DNA from: Zhongshania aliphaticivorans
GTDB taxonomy: Bacteria; Pseudomonadota; Gammaproteobacteria; Pseudomonadales; Spongiibacteraceae
Direction of reading: 5' to 3'
Length of the DNA: 64,000 bases
Assembly: GCF_001586255.1 (NCBI RefSeq)
Contig: NZ_CP014544.1
Location: 3,318,501 to 3,382,500 of the forward strand
Notes under the pieces: model-generated
What the model saw: the letters and a program-made list of their open reading frames with translations, nothing else
What the model was told of the DNA's origin: nothing
Database searches by the model: none
Program-made: the position numbers and the translations under genes
Shown: positions 42,919 through 47,770 of the stretch, one piece after another
Numbering within the stretch: the first letter of the stretch is position 1
How the letters are laid out: each line of letters opens with the position of its first letter

Positions 42919-42954
42919 TTGACATAGCGCCCTGAAGCTTGGAAAATGCGCGCC
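42919..42954 (+). promoter_or_regulatory. Promoter for tRNA-Met
   Basis: Perfect TTGACA at 42919-42924, 17-nt spacer, GAAAAT (-10-like, 4 of 6) at 42942-42947, then a GC-rich GCGCGCC discriminator. This is typical of stringently controlled stable-RNA promoters and lies about 20 nt before the tRNA 5' end. Confidence 0.65.
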
Positions 42955-42974
42955 TTCTCTGCATAGAGAACAGT

Positions 42975-43051
42975 GGCAAGGTAGCTCAGTTGGTTAGAGC
43001 ACAACACTCATAATGTTGGGGTCGGCGGTTCGAATCCGCCCCTTGCTACCA
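42975..43051 (+). tRNA. tRNA-Met, elongator type (anticodon CAT)
   Basis: A 77-nt cloverleaf: acceptor GGCAAGG/CCTTGCT, D arm GTAGCTCAGTTGGTTAGAGC, anticodon stem CAACA/TGTTG with CAT at 43009-43011, and T arm GGCGG-TTCGAAT-CCGCC, with encoded CCA. The body matches elongator tRNA-Met rather than initiator (no three G-C pairs in the anticodon stem) or Ile2. The first acceptor pair is G1-U72, which is unusual. Confidence 0.93.
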
Positions 43052-43058
43052 TTATTCT

Positions 43059-43085
43059 AAAAACCACCAATAGGTGGTTTTTTTT
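43059..43085 (+). terminator. Intrinsic terminator after tRNA-Met
   Basis: Stem AAAACCACC/GGTGGTTTT with loop AATA, followed by a run of eight T. Strong Rho-independent terminator 7 nt after the CCA end. Confidence 0.9.
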
Positions 43086-43114
43086 CGACTATCGAAAAGT
43101 GCTCCGTACTCAAT

Positions 43115-43248
43115 GGGCGGATGAGAACCGCCGCGCGGTTCGACCAAATGCGACCAAGCATTTGGAACAAGCCATGTATGCTTTTCAATACATGGCGCAG
43201 CCCGAAGGGGCATTAGCAGGCCCAAGCCTGCTAATGATTAACCCGCCC
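43115..43248 (+). repeat. Multi-hairpin element, copy A (134 nt)
   Basis: Five consecutive hairpins enclosed by a closing stem. Closing: GGGCGG (43115-43120) with CCGCCC (43243-43248). H1 GAACCGC/GCGGTTC (43125-43141). H2 CCAAATGC/GCATTTGG (43144-43165). H3 CCATGTAT/ATACATGG (43172-43195). H4 GCCC/GGGC (43200-43211). H5 ATTAGCAGGC/GCCTGCTAAT (43212-43235). A same-length copy lies at 44601-44734. An open frame across it is short and not credible as a gene. It may be a structured RNA or a structured DNA repeat; I do not recognise a named family. Confidence 0.85.
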
Positions 43249-43249
43249 C
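43242..43249. repeat. Target-site duplication, left (CCCGCCCC)
   Basis: Eight bases directly abutting the left end of the IS, repeated exactly at 44550-44557. Eight bp is the usual ISL3 duplication. It includes the right arm of the closing stem of copy A. Confidence 0.92.
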
Positions 43250-44549
43250 GGCTCTACCCCATTATCGGGGGATAGCACTCATCAAACCCTGTTAATCACT
43301 CCGTCCCACCCGCAGTGGGCCAGCACTCTCATCCTGTAATTTTCAAAGTTTCTAAAACCATACGCTCGTCGTGTCATCATTTCCATTTTGTTGTGGAAGC
43401 CCTCAGTTATTCCGTTACTTTTACTAAATCGCCACATGGCCACAATGGGCTTCAACCAGGAGCGCAATGTGTTAGCTAGCGCTCGTAGCGGGCTCTCAGC
43501 TAGCTCATCAAGCAATTTCATGAATACCGGCAACTTGATGCTGGCTTTCTTGCGCGTCAGGGTCTTGAGCAACACAAATCGGATTAATCGTTGCTTGGCC
43601 ACATACAGTGCTTGCAGCACTGGGTACTCAGCCAAATACTGCATAAGGTTGGCGTGCTGCTCATCCCGCAAATTCCATTGATGGCGACGCATTAAACTGA
43701 TCAAACCGCGGTTCTTTCTGCCCTCAGGATCATGCTGCTTCCAGACACTTAAAAAGTGCTGGTTAATAAGCCTGACCACATGGAATCGGTCAGCCACGAT
43801 CGCGGCATTGGGAAAGTAGCGGCGGGCAATGCTGCGGTACGTTTCCGAGAGATCCATCACCACAACCTGAACGCGCTCTCGTCCCTCAAGGGCCTTTAAA
43901 TAGCGGCGCAAACTCAATTCTGATCGTCCTAGTTGGACATCAAACACTTTGTGATTCTTGAGGTCGGTAAGCGTGGTCGCATAACCCTTTTTACGGGTAA
44001 AGAAATGCTCATCTATCCCTAATACGCGAGGGCAATATCGGCGATCCCCCTCGGAACGCTTTTGCTTAATATGGTGCTGATACCAACGCTCTACCGTCGC
44101 TGGGCTGATTTGATGGGTTCGAGACAACTTGCGCTGCGTTACACCGCCATCGTGGGCTTCGAACACTTCCAGTCGATAGGCTTCTGAAGCGCGAAAACGC
44201 GGACGAATACCGGTAAAGGCGTGACGAAAATAGCGCTTACACTCCTGGCAATGGTACTTGGGTACTCGAAGGTGCAAGGTCATCACTTGATTCCCCTGAC
44301 GAGTGTGCTTCACCGTCCTGAGATGCGTGGCTTTAATCCTCAGGCCATTGCCCTGACAATGCTTACAAGGCGGCCTGTGCACAGGCTTTGCCCAGACTTC
44401 GATCCCTTTCCTGCGGACTACCCGTTCAATCTCAAGGCCAGGTATGCCTATAATTCTTCCTGCGTGGGACATCGGTATTCTCCATCAAACTGTTTCTTCG
44501 CAAATTCAGTTTAATGAATGCCGGTGTCCCCCGTTAATGATGAAGAGCC
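43250..44549 (-). mobile_element. Complete ISL3-family insertion sequence
   Basis: An element of about 1300 bp. Imperfect terminal inverted repeats are seen: the left end reads GGCTCTACCCCATTATCGGG from 43250, and the right end read inward from 44549 is GGCTCTTCATCATTAACGGG; both continue to GGA. A perfect 8-bp duplication (CCCGCCCC) flanks it. One full transposase gene lies on the minus strand. Intact ends, gene and duplication suggest a recent insertion. Confidence 0.93.
43282..44472 (-). CDS. ISL3-family transposase
   Basis: DDE transposase of 396 residues. N-terminal zinc-finger Cys pairs at about 36/39 (CKHC) and 75/78 (CQEC), a helix-turn-helix region (LSRTHQISPATVERW), then catalytic Asp at about 154 (LGIDEHFF), Asp at about 228 (ADRFHVVRL) and Glu at about 357 (NGITEGFHNKM). 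All three acidic residues are present, so it is probably active. It is read opposite to the flanking tRNA and lipoprotein genes. Confidence 0.95.
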   Translation of the reverse strand: MSHAGRIIGIPGLEIERVVRRKGIEVWAKPVHRPPCKHCQGNGLRIKATHLRTVKHTRQGNQVMTLHLRVPKYHCQECKRYFRHAFTGIRPRFRASEAYRLEVFEAHDGGVTQRKLSRTHQISPATVERWYQHHIKQKRSEGDRRYCPRVLGIDEHFFTRKKGYATTLTDLKNHKVFDVQLGRSELSLRRYLKALEGRERVQVVVMDLSETYRSIARRYFPNAAIVADRFHVVRLINQHFLSVWKQHDPEGRKNRGLISLMRRHQWNLRDEQHANLMQYLAEYPVLQALYVAKQRLIRFVLLKTLTRKKASIKLPVFMKLLDELAESPLRALANTLRSWLKPIVAMWRFSKSNGITEGFHNKMEMMTRRAYGFRNFENYRMRVLAHCGWDGVINRV

Positions 44550-44557
44550 CCCGCCCC
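44550..44557. repeat. Target-site duplication, right (CCCGCCCC)
   Basis: Exact match of 43242-43249 immediately after the right IS end. Confidence 0.92.
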
Positions 44558-44600
44558 GTACTAAACGCTGCCACATTATTCAAAAAAACCACCCCCCGAC
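44558..44600 (+). other. Possible tRNA 3'-trailer remnant between the two hairpin elements
   Basis: After removing the IS, the sequence linking copy A to copy B reads gtactaaacgctgccacatt followed by attcaaaaaaaccacc. It resembles the end of tRNA-Met plus its trailer (ttgctaccattattctaaaa then accacc), suggesting that the copy B unit arose by duplication of tRNA-Met 3' sequence together with the element. Here CCACCC can also pair locally with GGGTGG at 44601, replacing the terminator stem. Confidence 0.45.
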
Positions 44601-44734
44601 GGGTGGATGAGAACCGCGGCGCGGTTCGACCAAATGCGACCAAGTATTTGGGACAAGCCATGTATGCTTTTCAATACGTGGCGCAGCCCGCAGGGGCGGA
44701 AACAGGCCCTAGCCTGTTTTTGATCAACCCGCCC
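44601..44734 (+). repeat. Multi-hairpin element, copy B (134 nt)
   Basis: Same architecture and exact length as 43115-43248. Closing GGGTGG (44601-44606) with CCGCCC (44729-44734); H1 44611-44627; H2 44630-44651; H3 44658-44681; H4 44686-44697; H5 AAACAGGC/GCCTGTTT (44700-44719). Relative to copy A, H2, H3 and the closing stem change to G-U pairs, and H5 has two double compensatory changes (G-C to A-T and T-A to A-T). H1 and H4 differ only in their loops. Confidence 0.85.
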
Positions 44735-44968
44735 CCTTAATTCCAGCCCTATAAGCAGCTTGCTTTCAAAATCTACTCGAAAACCAAAACTCGAAACGCA
44801 TCACACCAATCCGCTTTTGTCTCCCTCATCACAAGTTTGCCGCAAAAGCGCAACAATTAAGCTAATATGCGTTTATAGTTAGTGACTTACTACATTAAAC
44901 TGATAAAAAATATAATCTTGGGCACTGAACAACCCAAGGGAAGTGATACTTGATAGGGGATATCGGTT
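44735..44968 (+). other. Intergenic region before the Ig-repeat lipoprotein
   Basis: No gene is seen. The region is AT-richer than its surroundings and should contain the promoter of the lipoprotein gene; TTGCCG near 44838 and TAATAT near 44863 are a possible pair, but the match is weak. Confidence 0.3.
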
Positions 44969-47770
44969 ATGAAGCTTTTGTTGCGTGCCAGCTTACTGGC
45001 TCTCTCACTCACAACAATTACCGCATGCGGTGGCGGTGGAGGGAGCGACGGTCCATCACTCACCCCAAATGGCCAAACCCCCGGCAGCGGCAACACCAAT
45101 ACTAGTGTTCGTTTCGGCATATCCAATAGCAGCGGATTTCAAGACGGAGTAATTGGAAGCGACCTCACCGAATTAGCACAAAATGACAGCACCACTCTGC
45201 GAGTTGCTTTTGTTGACGAAAATGGCGCCCCGGTGACAACCCCTGCGCAGATCGAGTTCACCTCCACTTGTGTTAGCGATGGCGCATCCTCTATTACCCC
45301 TGCCACCACAACGAATGCCACCGGACTGGTGAGTGTTACTTATACCGCCGAAGGCTGTAATATCTCAGACACAGTGGTTGCCACTACAACCATTAACAAT
45401 ACTAAATTAATTGCATCGGTATCGTTAGCAACTAGCAGCGACATTGGCACAGGGGGCGGCAATGGCGGCGGTGATACTACCGATATTCGCTTCGGCACAT
45501 TTGCCAACAACAGTTTTGTTGACGGCGCAATTAAGGCCAACTTCACCAGCCTTCAGCCTGGCGACAAGGTAAACCTTGAGGTTTCCTTTATTAATGGCGA
45601 TGGTTTACCTTACACCGACCCTGCCTCCGTCACCTTCACGTCGACCTGCATTAGCGCAAACTTAGCGACCATAACACCCGCTAGCGTAACTAACAGCAAC
45701 GGCTTAATTCAGGCCCAATACACCTCAGTGAGCTGTAATGGCGAAGATAACGTTATCGCCACCACCAGTGTCGACAACGTTGCCCTGAACGCCAATGTTG
45801 TACTCACCACGACTTTCAACAATCGCTTCGGCACCATAGTTGGCGGAATATTCAAAGACGGCCTAATCAAAACCAGCACCAGCACTTTAAAAACAGGGCA
45901 AACCGCTATCCTTACAGTGAAACTACAGGACGGGCAAGCCAACCCAGTTGTTGGCCATGACGTTCGATTCTCGTCATCAAACTGCGTTGGCTCAGATCTA
46001 GCGAGTATTACCGCAACCGCGGCAACAAATGCCAGCGGTATCGCCACTGCCAACTACACTGCAAACGGTTGCGATGGCGAAGATATCGTCATTGCAGAAA
46101 CCCGCTATGAAGGACAAGATCTAAGTGCGACAAGCACACTGACAATAGACCCTTTGCAGGTTCGATTCGGCTCTTTTAATCAACTAACCTTCAATGAAGG
46201 CACAATTGCAAGCAGTGTGAACGGGACGATTGAGGCCGGTCAATCTACACAACTCACCGTCGATTTAATTGACCAAAATAACGATCGCTATACTGGCGCC
46301 AGCGATATCTTTTTCACTTCAAACTGCCAAGCCACCGGCCTAGCAGAAATCGACCCAAGCGTTATCGCAAGCAGCGATGGCAAAGCAACCGTAATTTACA
46401 CCGCGCGGGGCTGTGAGCCCAACGATATAGTCACCGCCCAAACGAGCGTCGCAGGAAGCACATTAACCGCTACTATCGATATCGCGACTGAGCAGCTCCC
46501 AATTGGAGGCATTCAGTTCATTAGCGCCACGCCTCGAGTATTGCGCTTGAATGGCACCGGAGGCCCTTCCTCTGACTCACAATCCATCGTCAAATTTAAA
46601 GTCACCGCAGCGGACGGCTCACCCTTACCAAGCCAAATCGTTAACCTCTCATTAAATACTGGAGACCCAATCGCAAGCGATTCAAATAACGGTAAAGATG
46701 CATTTTTAAGTAGCTATCAAGAAACCACTGACGCGAACGGCGAAATCTCAACGACGGTGAATGCCGGAACGCGAGCAACCCCGATCAGGGTCACTGCAAC
46801 AGCCCTGCAAAACGGTGTGGAAAAAACCGCACAGTCGTCATCTCTTGCAATTACCACTGGTATTCCAGATCAAGATAGTTTTTCCATCAGCGCCTCTGTC
46901 CTCAATATTGAAGGAAATAGCCGCAATGGCGAAACCACAACCATTACGGTCCATGCTGCGGATAGATTTAACAATCCAGTTTTAGATGGAACAGCAATTG
47001 TATTCAACACTGAAGGTGGCGCTATTGGTCAAGTAGACGGCAGCGACCCTACCACAGGCGAGGGCACCGGCGGCGAATGCTTTACGGTTGGCGGCGTTTG
47101 CTCAGTAACACTAAGATCGCAAAACCCGAAACCGGTCGACGGAAAAGTGAGTGTATTTGCATACGCAATTGGCGAAGAAAACTTCACTGATAGCAATGGC
47201 AATGGGCGCTACGACAGCGGTGAAGCCTTCGACAATATCCTAGAACCCTTCCGCGATGACAACGAAGACATCACACATAACGCCGGCGAGTTTTTCGCAG
47301 ACTTTAATGACGATGGCGTCCGCAATGACAGCAGCGACCCAAATTCAACCGGAAGCCTATACGACGGACTACTGTGTGACGCAAATTGCGGAAATAACAC
47401 ACTGTATGTCAGCAACCAAATGAAAATTATATTTGGCGCGTCAAGCTTCAATGTAGATGTGACGCCTGCAAATCTTGACGGTGGCGACGCAGCGATAATG
47501 ATCACCATCACCGACGCAGAAGGCGTAGCACGAAATAAACGCCCACCGGCGGGCACAACGGTATCCATCACCACAACATTTGGAAGCATATCAGGTGCAA
47601 ATTCATGGGAAGTTGCTGACAGTATCGCCGATGGCCCAGCGGTTTATGTCACTGCACTAAAACAGTCGAACGCACCCGGTGGAGGCACCTTAGAGGTTAT
47701 CGTGACCACGCCGAGCGGCGTGCAATCCTTTGGCCAGGCAGCCGTATCACAAACGGTGACCCCTCCATAG
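44969..47770 (+). CDS. Large lipoprotein with four Cys-paired Ig-like repeats
   Basis: Protein of 933 residues. Lipoprotein signal LTTITAC (Cys at about 20) then a Gly5 linker, so it is probably a surface or periplasmic outer-membrane lipoprotein. Four homologous invasin/Big-1-like repeats begin at about 47, 173, 285 and 398, each opening with RFG and continuing to a G(L/I)-Y(T)-type strand. Each holds one Cys pair exactly 29 residues apart (101/130, 227/256, 339/368, 453/482). Two further Ig-like domains follow (about 518-720), then Asp/Asn-rich calcium-type motifs (DSNGNGRYDSGE; DFNDDGVRND, about 740-790) and a final Ig-like region. Adhesion or surface-structure function is inference. It stands alone. 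Confidence 0.85.
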   Translation: MKLLLRASLLALSLTTITACGGGGGSDGPSLTPNGQTPGSGNTNTSVRFGISNSSGFQDGVIGSDLTELAQNDSTTLRVAFVDENGAPVTTPAQIEFTSTCVSDGASSITPATTTNATGLVSVTYTAEGCNISDTVVATTTINNTKLIASVSLATSSDIGTGGGNGGGDTTDIRFGTFANNSFVDGAIKANFTSLQPGDKVNLEVSFINGDGLPYTDPASVTFTSTCISANLATITPASVTNSNGLIQAQYTSVSCNGEDNVIATTSVDNVALNANVVLTTTFNNRFGTIVGGIFKDGLIKTSTSTLKTGQTAILTVKLQDGQANPVVGHDVRFSSSNCVGSDLASITATAATNASGIATANYTANGCDGEDIVIAETRYEGQDLSATSTLTIDPLQVRFGSFNQLTFNEGTIASSVNGTIEAGQSTQLTVDLIDQNNDRYTGASDIFFTSNCQATGLAEIDPSVIASSDGKATVIYTARGCEPNDIVTAQTSVAGSTLTATIDIATEQLPIGGIQFISATPRVLRLNGTGGPSSDSQSIVKFKVTAADGSPLPSQIVNLSLNTGDPIASDSNNGKDAFLSSYQETTDANGEISTTVNAGTRATPIRVTATALQNGVEKTAQSSSLAITTGIPDQDSFSISASVLNIEGNSRNGETTTITVHAADRFNNPVLDGTAIVFNTEGGAIGQVDGSDPTTGEGTGGECFTVGGVCSVTLRSQNPKPVDGKVSVFAYAIGEENFTDSNGNGRYDSGEAFDNILEPFRDDNEDITHNAGEFFADFNDDGVRNDSSDPNSTGSLYDGLLCDANCGNNTLYVSNQMKIIFGASSFNVDVTPANLDGGDAAIMITITDAEGVARNKRPPAGTTVSITTTFGSISGANSWEVADSIADGPAVYVTALKQSNAPGGGTLEVIVTTPSGVQSFGQAAVSQTVTPP

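Follow-up and report, generated by a model that had tools for sequence, protein, structure and literature searches.

Two 134-nt elements that lie behind a tRNA-Met gene of Zhongshania aliphaticivorans are probably units of a repeat that is linked to tRNA genes and is a divergent sister of RtT, which Escherichia coli carries at tyrV and proK. The elements, here called copies A and B, are part of a 64,000-nt stretch of the genome (NZ_CP014544.1, positions 3,318,501 to 3,382,500; hereafter the window), in which an earlier note, made from the sequence alone, had pointed them out. For the group of such repeats as a whole, the comparison shows a site downstream of the tRNA gene and on its strand, a copied tRNA 3' end that, where present, reaches no further than 19 nt, an inverted left arm, copies in tandem, hairpins in which pairing has been kept, and a homology to RtT that is found by profile comparison.

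The two copies have the same fold, five hairpins within a closing stem, as the earlier note had described (Table 1). On the plus strand, A and B fold with -73.4 and -66.8 kcal/mol (z -9.66 and -6.28), and none of 200 shuffles matched the stability of either copy. The minus-strand folds are weaker, yet they also beat shuffled sequences (z -6.65 and -3.56). Substitutions between the copies retain pairing in the stems, again as noted: a C-G pair of the closing stem becomes U-G, changes in H2 and H3 produce G-U, and in H5 there is one change each from A-U to G-U, U-A to G-U, U-A to A-U and G-C to A-U. The reported repetition of GACCAA, twice in succession, is also present. Copy A begins 63 nt behind tRNA-Met, while copy B is 1549 nt away from it, across an insertion sequence (IS), and follows A when the IS is subtracted. 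By its DDE_Tnp_ISL3 transposase, terminal inverted repeats and 8-bp target duplication, the IS belongs to the ISL3 family, for which a duplication of 8 bp is typical. Since CCCGCCCC is found on both sides of the IS, the IS inserted at the end of copy A, and the two copies originally stood in tandem with a period of 178 bp. Thus, an ISL3 insertion split one tandem array into copies A and B, and the ISL3 element is later than the array.

How widespread are such units? The earlier note had proposed a covariance-model search of related genomes and a run against Rfam. A plain DNA search found matches in 15 of the 21 genomes of the family. A covariance model built from 15 units, including both window copies (R1; its E-values are rough, calibration having been short), matched 20 of 21 genomes of the family (E 0.01), 87 of 293 of the order (E 0.001) and 33 of 369 of the class (E 1e-4), the window's own genome being included each time. 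Two additional matches in the window's genome, L101 and L102, are weaker, with 37.2 and 25.3 bits, and follow tRNA-Val(GAC) and tRNA-Arg(CCG). In relatives, the unit recurs behind tRNA-Met, five times in genome G008, and there are five tandem units at the locus L010 of a relative; genome G019 has tRNA-Met, its trailer and the terminator-like hairpin, and the unit is absent. When copy A was searched as DNA against phage, plasmid and E. coli collections, there was no match at E 0.01, and a 20-base exact pattern had zero matches in a genome contig collection. A gapped core-like pattern found 32 stretches among genome contigs, with a same-strand tRNA within 600 nt of 25 of the 40 pattern copies; the labels of these contigs (unchecked) include Spongiibacter, Simiduia, Porticoccus, Dasania, Pseudoteredinibacter, Sediminihaliea, a Solemya symbiont, and metagenome-assembled genomes given as Rickettsiales or Micavibrio. 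(The copies in contigs with the last two labels, L183, L186 and L201, are either mis-binned or truly alphaproteobacterial.)

The proposed search led to relatives of which most are found behind tRNA genes. For this comparison, 80 stretches were fetched and scored with R1 alongside the earlier loci, and 172 copies were retained, tandem copies at one locus being counted individually. Copies were fetched mainly in order of score, best first, and weak or decayed ones are under-represented. The two weakest of one set of 111 matches were dropped (L106 1116-1191, L124 859-904), as were 16 rows of a set of 79, including three of L035 (the L014 site), two of L050 (the L113 site), opposite-strand doubles of better matches, and the weak partial matches L040 1674, L079 1219, L085 and two in L100; for L107, the full-length coordinates given by the scan of the family genomes were used. 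Some of the copies (L033, L081, L087-L091) had been obtained through RtT, either with its model or as the E. coli repeats, and the RtT comparison set discussed below therefore overlaps with the 172. A same-strand tRNA lies upstream of 144 of the 172 copies, copy B included. These tRNAs cover 11 amino-acid classes: Ser 49, Arg 30, Met 28, Val 12, Phe 11, Lys 5, Gln 3, Asp 2, Pro 2, Leu 1 and Tyr 1. The distance behind the CCA is 40-67 nt for 97 of 107 first copies. Within 300 nt, 134 copies have tRNAs on the same strand only, one has them on both strands, and 37 have none. Among the 28 copies without a called upstream tRNA, three are E. coli copies, with tyrV cut off by the edge of the locus, and a tRNA-like 3' end stands in front of others (L104, L128, L148, L152, L158); 144 is thus a lower bound. 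At the class level, a tRNA is present in 16 of 19 loci, a count of presence regardless of distance or strand.

As read from the sequences, a full unit runs from the tRNA trailer (often with a terminator) through an inverted tRNA 3' end, the 5' strand of the T-arm (GGTTCGA) and a core of hairpins to a direct copy of tRNA nucleotides A58-A76. The core, 49 to 150 nt long among the listed copies, is independent of the tRNA in sequence. It sits where nucleotides 57 and 58 of the tRNA would join, and its flanks pair together as a T-stem-like closing helix. The copied tRNA end was compared in 143 copies with a tRNA within 1000 nt; window copy B was left out owing to the IS. Counted back from the CCA of the unit's own tRNA, the exact match is 19 nt in 32 copies, longer in none, and at least 12 nt in 49. 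The 32 copies represent 24 distinct loci; for five of the copies, the locus had been supplied by the RtT model. In standard numbering, counted by hand, the 19 nt are A58-A76. The own tRNA was strictly the top-scoring one over all amino-acid classes in 97 of the 143. The left arm, scored as a reverse complement in the same 143 copies, fits the own tRNA better (9.04) than tRNAs of other classes (6.54, sd 0.11), and in an initial test the own tRNA scored above the highest mean of any other class in 58 of them. Clear examples are L156, L067, L072 and L171, and L233 begins, by eye, at the complement of CCA. The trailer is repeated 3' of the unit with a mean similarity of 0.69, against 0.25 when permuted; of the 38 first copies that could be tested, first units of tandem arrays among them, 25 reached a similarity of at least 0.6. 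Of the three origins suggested in the earlier note, a repeat derived from a tRNA trailer therefore comes nearest, in view of the inverted and direct copies of the tRNA 3' end, but the core is not tRNA-derived.

The same anatomy is found in E. coli. At tyrV, the Rfam RtT model (RF00391) has three hits, each unit with exactly 19 nt of tRNA-Tyr; the RtT of proK has exactly 19 nt of tRNA-Pro, and here the trailer and a terminator-like hairpin are repeated. R1, which had no RtT in its training set, recovered all three tyrV copies when 238 kb were searched (E 0.0003 to 0.0034). Run over seven stretches of E. coli, it gave three matches at tyrV and two at proK (E 9e-6 to 1.6e-4), with the motifs aligned, and none in the five other tRNA stretches. 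Among 20 loci of the order found with the RtT model, 15 have an upstream tRNA and seven the exact 19 nt. (L083, scored as a miss in that count, actually follows tRNA-Tyr with 18 nt.) At E 0.1, R1 finds part of the RtT-model loci L081-L100, namely L081, L085, L087-L091 and L100. In E. coli, the final A of the copied CCA is also the 3' end of the annotated non-coding RNA (ncRNA) rttR. The elements are, on this sequence evidence, very probably homologous with RtT; taken together, they would form one homologous group with it and yet stand outside RtT as Rfam models it. That no family had been recognised is accordingly right insofar as Rfam matched neither copy, so that they do not belong to an already described Rfam family by direct match, but not insofar as they are related to RtT by profile. 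In one E. coli stretch (L240 583-701, proK), a second, truncated unit merges into naRNA4/REP-like sequence, where REP stands for repetitive extragenic palindrome, and forms a natural RtT-REP junction.

Several observations weigh against this account. The Rfam RtT model has no match in the window at the gathering threshold, where Rfam reports only two tRNAs, nor in 42960-44800 at E 10, and none in the loci of eight relatives at E 0.5; within the order it matches 15 of 95 genomes (E 0.01; six above the cut-off), and the window's genome is not among them. In 51 of the 143 copies, the exact match at the CCA end is shorter than 4 nt, and in 46 the own tRNA is not strictly the best. In the window itself the tRNA-end copies are degenerate, and the local alignment score of the end of copy A is 7 for its own tRNA and 8 for another class. 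Second trailers fall under 0.6 similarity to the first in 13 of 38 cases. Cores at tRNAs for different amino acids are 0.52-0.55 alike, so that a switch from one tRNA species to another is not directly seen. Finally, in three cases the tRNA on the same strand follows the copy instead of preceding it (L071 1233-1352, L078 2039-2145, L141 589-704). The placement of these three is comparable to that of Pasteurellaceae RtTs, which a published account places upstream of tRNA genes (PMC4986893).

Cores tend to stay with their locus. Among 115 cores that passed a boundary check, identity was 0.89 in tandem, 0.67 behind the same tRNA within a genus and 0.54 behind tRNAs for different amino acids within a genus. 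Within one genome, it was 0.55 for different amino acids and 0.69 where the amino acid was the same but the anticodon differed (23 pairs, of which one genome supplied several), and across the order the same tRNA gave 0.53, barely above the 0.52 for different amino acids. A search of the 115 cores for recent moves from a tRNA of one amino acid to that of another gave no convincing case; the best pair, at 0.81, comes from separate genomes. This pattern suggests that cores are inherited with the locus over short times and duplicated in tandem, and that any exchange is confined to tRNAs whose 3' ends are alike. In some arrays, cores are nested head to tail with no whole tRNA-derived segment between them (L005, L008 and L014, GATC/ATAAA; L007, GATG/ATAAA; L078, another junction), and the junctions are near hairpin bases. 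It seems fairly likely that arrays would gain and lose units by tandem duplication and slippage at hairpin bases, being otherwise inherited with the tRNA locus. In the window, the ISL3 insertion has broken the array, and its tRNA-end copies have decayed.

Are the palindromes maintained as RNA or as DNA? The earlier note read the stem changes between A and B as covariation, which coding or neutral sequence would not show, and held that its absence among many homologues would argue against a conserved RNA structure. Two sequences leave the matter unsettled, but across 136 copies the covariation is strong: in an alignment fitted to the R1 structure, of copies that are related to each other, two-sided changes occur at 32 of 33 pairs, with 776 two-sided cells where 228 were expected, and none of 500 shuffles reached the observed count. 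To equate covariation with RNA is nevertheless too strong a claim, as the recent changes have no excess of G-U. In 36 non-overlapping close pairs (at least 0.78 identity, a few between different tRNA types), core-stem changes comprise 40 from one Watson-Crick pair to another, 17 to A-C, 10 to G-U and 26 to other mismatches; in addition, a G-U pair became Watson-Crick in 3 cases and a mismatch in 3 others, and one double change led to A-C. The absence of a G-U excess makes upkeep of the palindromes at the DNA level likely, at least in part. On the other hand, over all copies of the model-fitted alignment G-U outnumbers A-C by 175 to 79, which speaks against DNA upkeep, and it does so in four of the five stems (H1 39/11, H4 36/8, H5 30/11, closing stem 66/33); H2, with 4 G-U and 16 A-C in 928 cells, is the other. 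These counts were made without regard to the tree. The sense strand of the core is the more stable one in 72 of 115. The evidence is thus mixed: H2 and the recent changes resemble DNA palindrome upkeep, and the other stems lean towards RNA. Chances are about even that the palindromes would be kept perfect largely at the DNA level. A putative read-through past the tRNA terminator followed by tRNA 3'-end processing could, with similarly balanced odds, free an RtT-like RNA with a tRNA-like CCA end.

The same observations bear on the alternatives. The structured RNA of the earlier note, for which the conserved structure and the annotated ncRNA of the E. coli relative speak, would be an RtT-type regulatory RNA, trans-acting or housekeeping, made from the tRNA transcript and selected at the RNA level, with the hairpins and the CCA end functional. 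This reading, which agrees with the two-sided changes, the shared strand of tRNA and repeat, the overall G-U excess and the Northern signals reported for two Pasteurellaceae RtTs in PMC4986893, is possible but rather doubtful, given the pattern of recent core-stem changes, the A-C excess in H2, a core that varies from 49 to 150 nt among the listed copies, the 206 of 293 order genomes without a match at E 0.001 (under stricter filters) and the absence of a unit behind tRNA-Met in G019. That element-free locus would also suit a minimal non-autonomous mobile cassette that enters the tRNA T-arm like an att site, at the junction 57/58, with a tyrosine recombinase, or another recombinase that acts on single-strand folds, supplied in trans. 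The layout is that of a Campbell-type insertion of a circle sharing the tRNA's A58-A76 and trailer, one boundary holds over many tRNA species, E. coli included, and most of the observed core-core junctions use identical core ends. However, cores follow their locus, and the tRNA end is fixed at 19 nt, unlike phage att sites, where blocks of identity vary in length; such a cassette is distinctly improbable.

The earlier note also considered a non-autonomous mobile element, and a tie to the neighbouring IS is not supported. The copies flank the IS, and ISL3-type ends (GGCTCTAC/GGCTCTTC) are found within 100 nt of the repeat in eight of 50 family loci, but the IS has ends of its own and its target duplication lies inside the repeat array, and the remaining 42 loci have no ISL3-type end within 100 nt. 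That the copies are passengers of the ISL3 element or its terminal repeats (an IS-borne repeat or a miniature inverted-repeat transposable element) is hardly credible, and an IS-borne repeat as the origin is ruled out by the target duplication within the array. The eight loci with nearby ends are the window, L007, L015, L016, L018, L113, L114 and L130; for comparison, and with partner ends counted, the roughly 54 kb examined together with the window contain nine ends at distances above 400 nt. ISL3 elements may favour these palindromes as targets. A protein-coding role is likewise extremely unlikely. Small open reading frames (43099-43275 and 44444-44740) span A and B, and 'tpr' is annotated inside the E. 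coli repeat, but changes track pairing, and the coding reading was rejected because core lengths differ among copies by non-multiples of three.

The features of the locus are listed in Table 1. The left arm of copy A contains the 5' strand of the closing stem (43115-43120), the 3' strand of H1 overlaps the T-arm strand GGTTCGA (43137-43143), and the tRNA-end copy of A seemingly resumes beyond the IS at 44558-44581. The hairpin between tRNA-Met and copy A was not listed by a terminator scan, perhaps since its stem runs into an A/T tract; a matching trailer reappears 3' of the unit in many relatives. For the candidate promoter of tRNA-Met, the scanned region gave one match against 2.1 expected. 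Directly 3' of the repeat is a gene for a 933-aa Big_1-domain protein with a lipoprotein-like N terminus (44969-47770), and similar-looking reading frames begin, by eye, 3' of the array in L008, L015 and L017.

Table 1. Features of the tRNA-Met repeat locus (window positions) and weaker matches elsewhere in the same genome
Feature	Coordinates	Strand	Basis
Candidate sigma-70-like promoter (TTGACA-17-GAAAAT) 5' of tRNA-Met	42919..42947	+	consensus match alone
tRNA-Met(CAT), anchor gene	42975..43051	+	ARAGORN; Rfam tRNA 72.5 bits
Terminator-like hairpin and T run, tRNA trailer	43060..43085	+	by eye
Copy A left arm, degenerate reverse complement of tRNA 3' end	43111..43129	+	read from sequence and fold
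Copy A, entire multi-hairpin element	43115..43248	+	R1 120.0 bits; A in R1 training set (15 sequences)
Copy A hairpin H1 (GAACCGC/GCGGTTC)	43125..43141	+	fold
Copy A core, H2-H5	43143..43239	+	fold
Copy A core hairpins	H2 43144-43165, H3 43171-43196, H4 43200-43211, H5 43212-43235	+	fold
Copy A, start of tRNA A58-A76 copy, degenerate	43240..43249	+	comparison with relatives
IS target duplication CCCGCCCC (8 bp), left copy	43242..43249	.	sequence
ISL3-family IS, 1300 bp, ends GGCTCT.../...AGAGCC	43250..44549	-	sequence
ISL3-family transposase, 396 aa	43282..44472	-	Pfam DDE_Tnp_ISL3, E 5e-58
IS target duplication CCCGCCCC (8 bp), right copy	44550..44557	.	sequence
Duplicated tRNA-Met trailer remnant (CATTATTC...CCAC), 5' of copy B	44574..44593	+	compared with 43050-43069, by eye
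Copy B, entire multi-hairpin element	44601..44734	+	R1 109.1 bits; B in R1 training set (15 sequences)
Copy B core, H2-H5	44629..44725	+	fold; aligned to copy A
Copy B, start of tRNA 3'-end copy, degenerate	44726..44735	+	by eye
Weaker match L101	G000:C1:1515690-1515799		
Weaker match L102	G000:C1:3867362-3867486		

What might such repeats be in general? Tentatively, the gammaproteobacterial RtT-type repeats could be seen as a single class of palindromic DNA elements, minimal in size and anchored to tRNA genes. Each would be a hairpin cassette of about 75-100 bp, seated between nucleotides 57 and 58 of a tRNA 3' end that has been copied and folded back, and arising together with A58-A76 of that tRNA; spread and upkeep would take place at the DNA level, by template switching or recombination at hairpin bases, and the RNA would be a by-product or a later recruit. 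If true, this would account for the presence of exactly 19 bp of the tRNA gene in the tyrT repeats. The rule of construction, an A58-A76 copy with an inverted arm and an exchangeable core, is seen with many tRNA species and in E. coli, and the Rfam RtT model detects just part of the group. The group also offers many natural replicates in which covariation can be tested for RNA function against DNA palindrome upkeep, and it calls for caution in RNA discovery, where two-sided changes count as a strong sign of selection on RNA.

How do the elements compare with known systems? Repetitive extragenic palindromes and bacterial interspersed mosaic elements (BIMEs) are intergenic imperfect palindromes whose evolution is suspected to occur at the DNA level, as it is here; the window-type copies differ in being tied to tRNA genes, with many of them bearing the 3' end of that tRNA. 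In the att sites of elements that integrate into tRNA genes, the tRNA 3' end is repeated distal to the insert, and the attC sites of integrons are folded sites in tandem. Here, in contrast, no cargo is seen, the unit is shorter than 200 bp, the tRNA end is limited to 19 nt, and inheritance is mostly bound to the locus. The RNA family AaHKsRNA22 (RF02902) has sub-threshold matches to L018 (33.8 bits) and L013 (27.3 bits; cut-off 39.8), but was not among the matches in the searched window stretch.

The closest likeness is to the 178-bp tyrT-tyrV repeats and RtT (RF00391; rttR), whose origin and function have long been without a clear account. In published work, an rtT-like attenuator cluster is linked with BIMEs (PMC2965389), and RtT of Thioalkalivibrio is reported to be up-regulated in the cold (PMC8092127). 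Neither a general 19-nt/T-loop rule nor elements of this sort outside RtT were found described in those parts of the open-licence literature that were available. The window elements differ from RtT in the hairpins and sequence of their core, which the Rfam model does not match, and in their decayed tRNA ends; they also have a terminator-like hairpin between tRNA and unit, which is seen by eye at proK as well, but not at tyrV. What the two have in common is a place behind the tRNA on the same strand, tandem copies with a 178-bp period, the ordered motifs GGATGAGAA, GGTTCGA, CCCGAAGGG and an AATCC-like end (AACCC in the window), a T-stem-like closing helix, and, in E. coli and many relatives, an exact 19-nt end of their own tRNA. 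The elements of the window are known in kind and new as a variant: a divergent RtT-type tRNA-linked repeat, together with an anatomical rule for how it is built.

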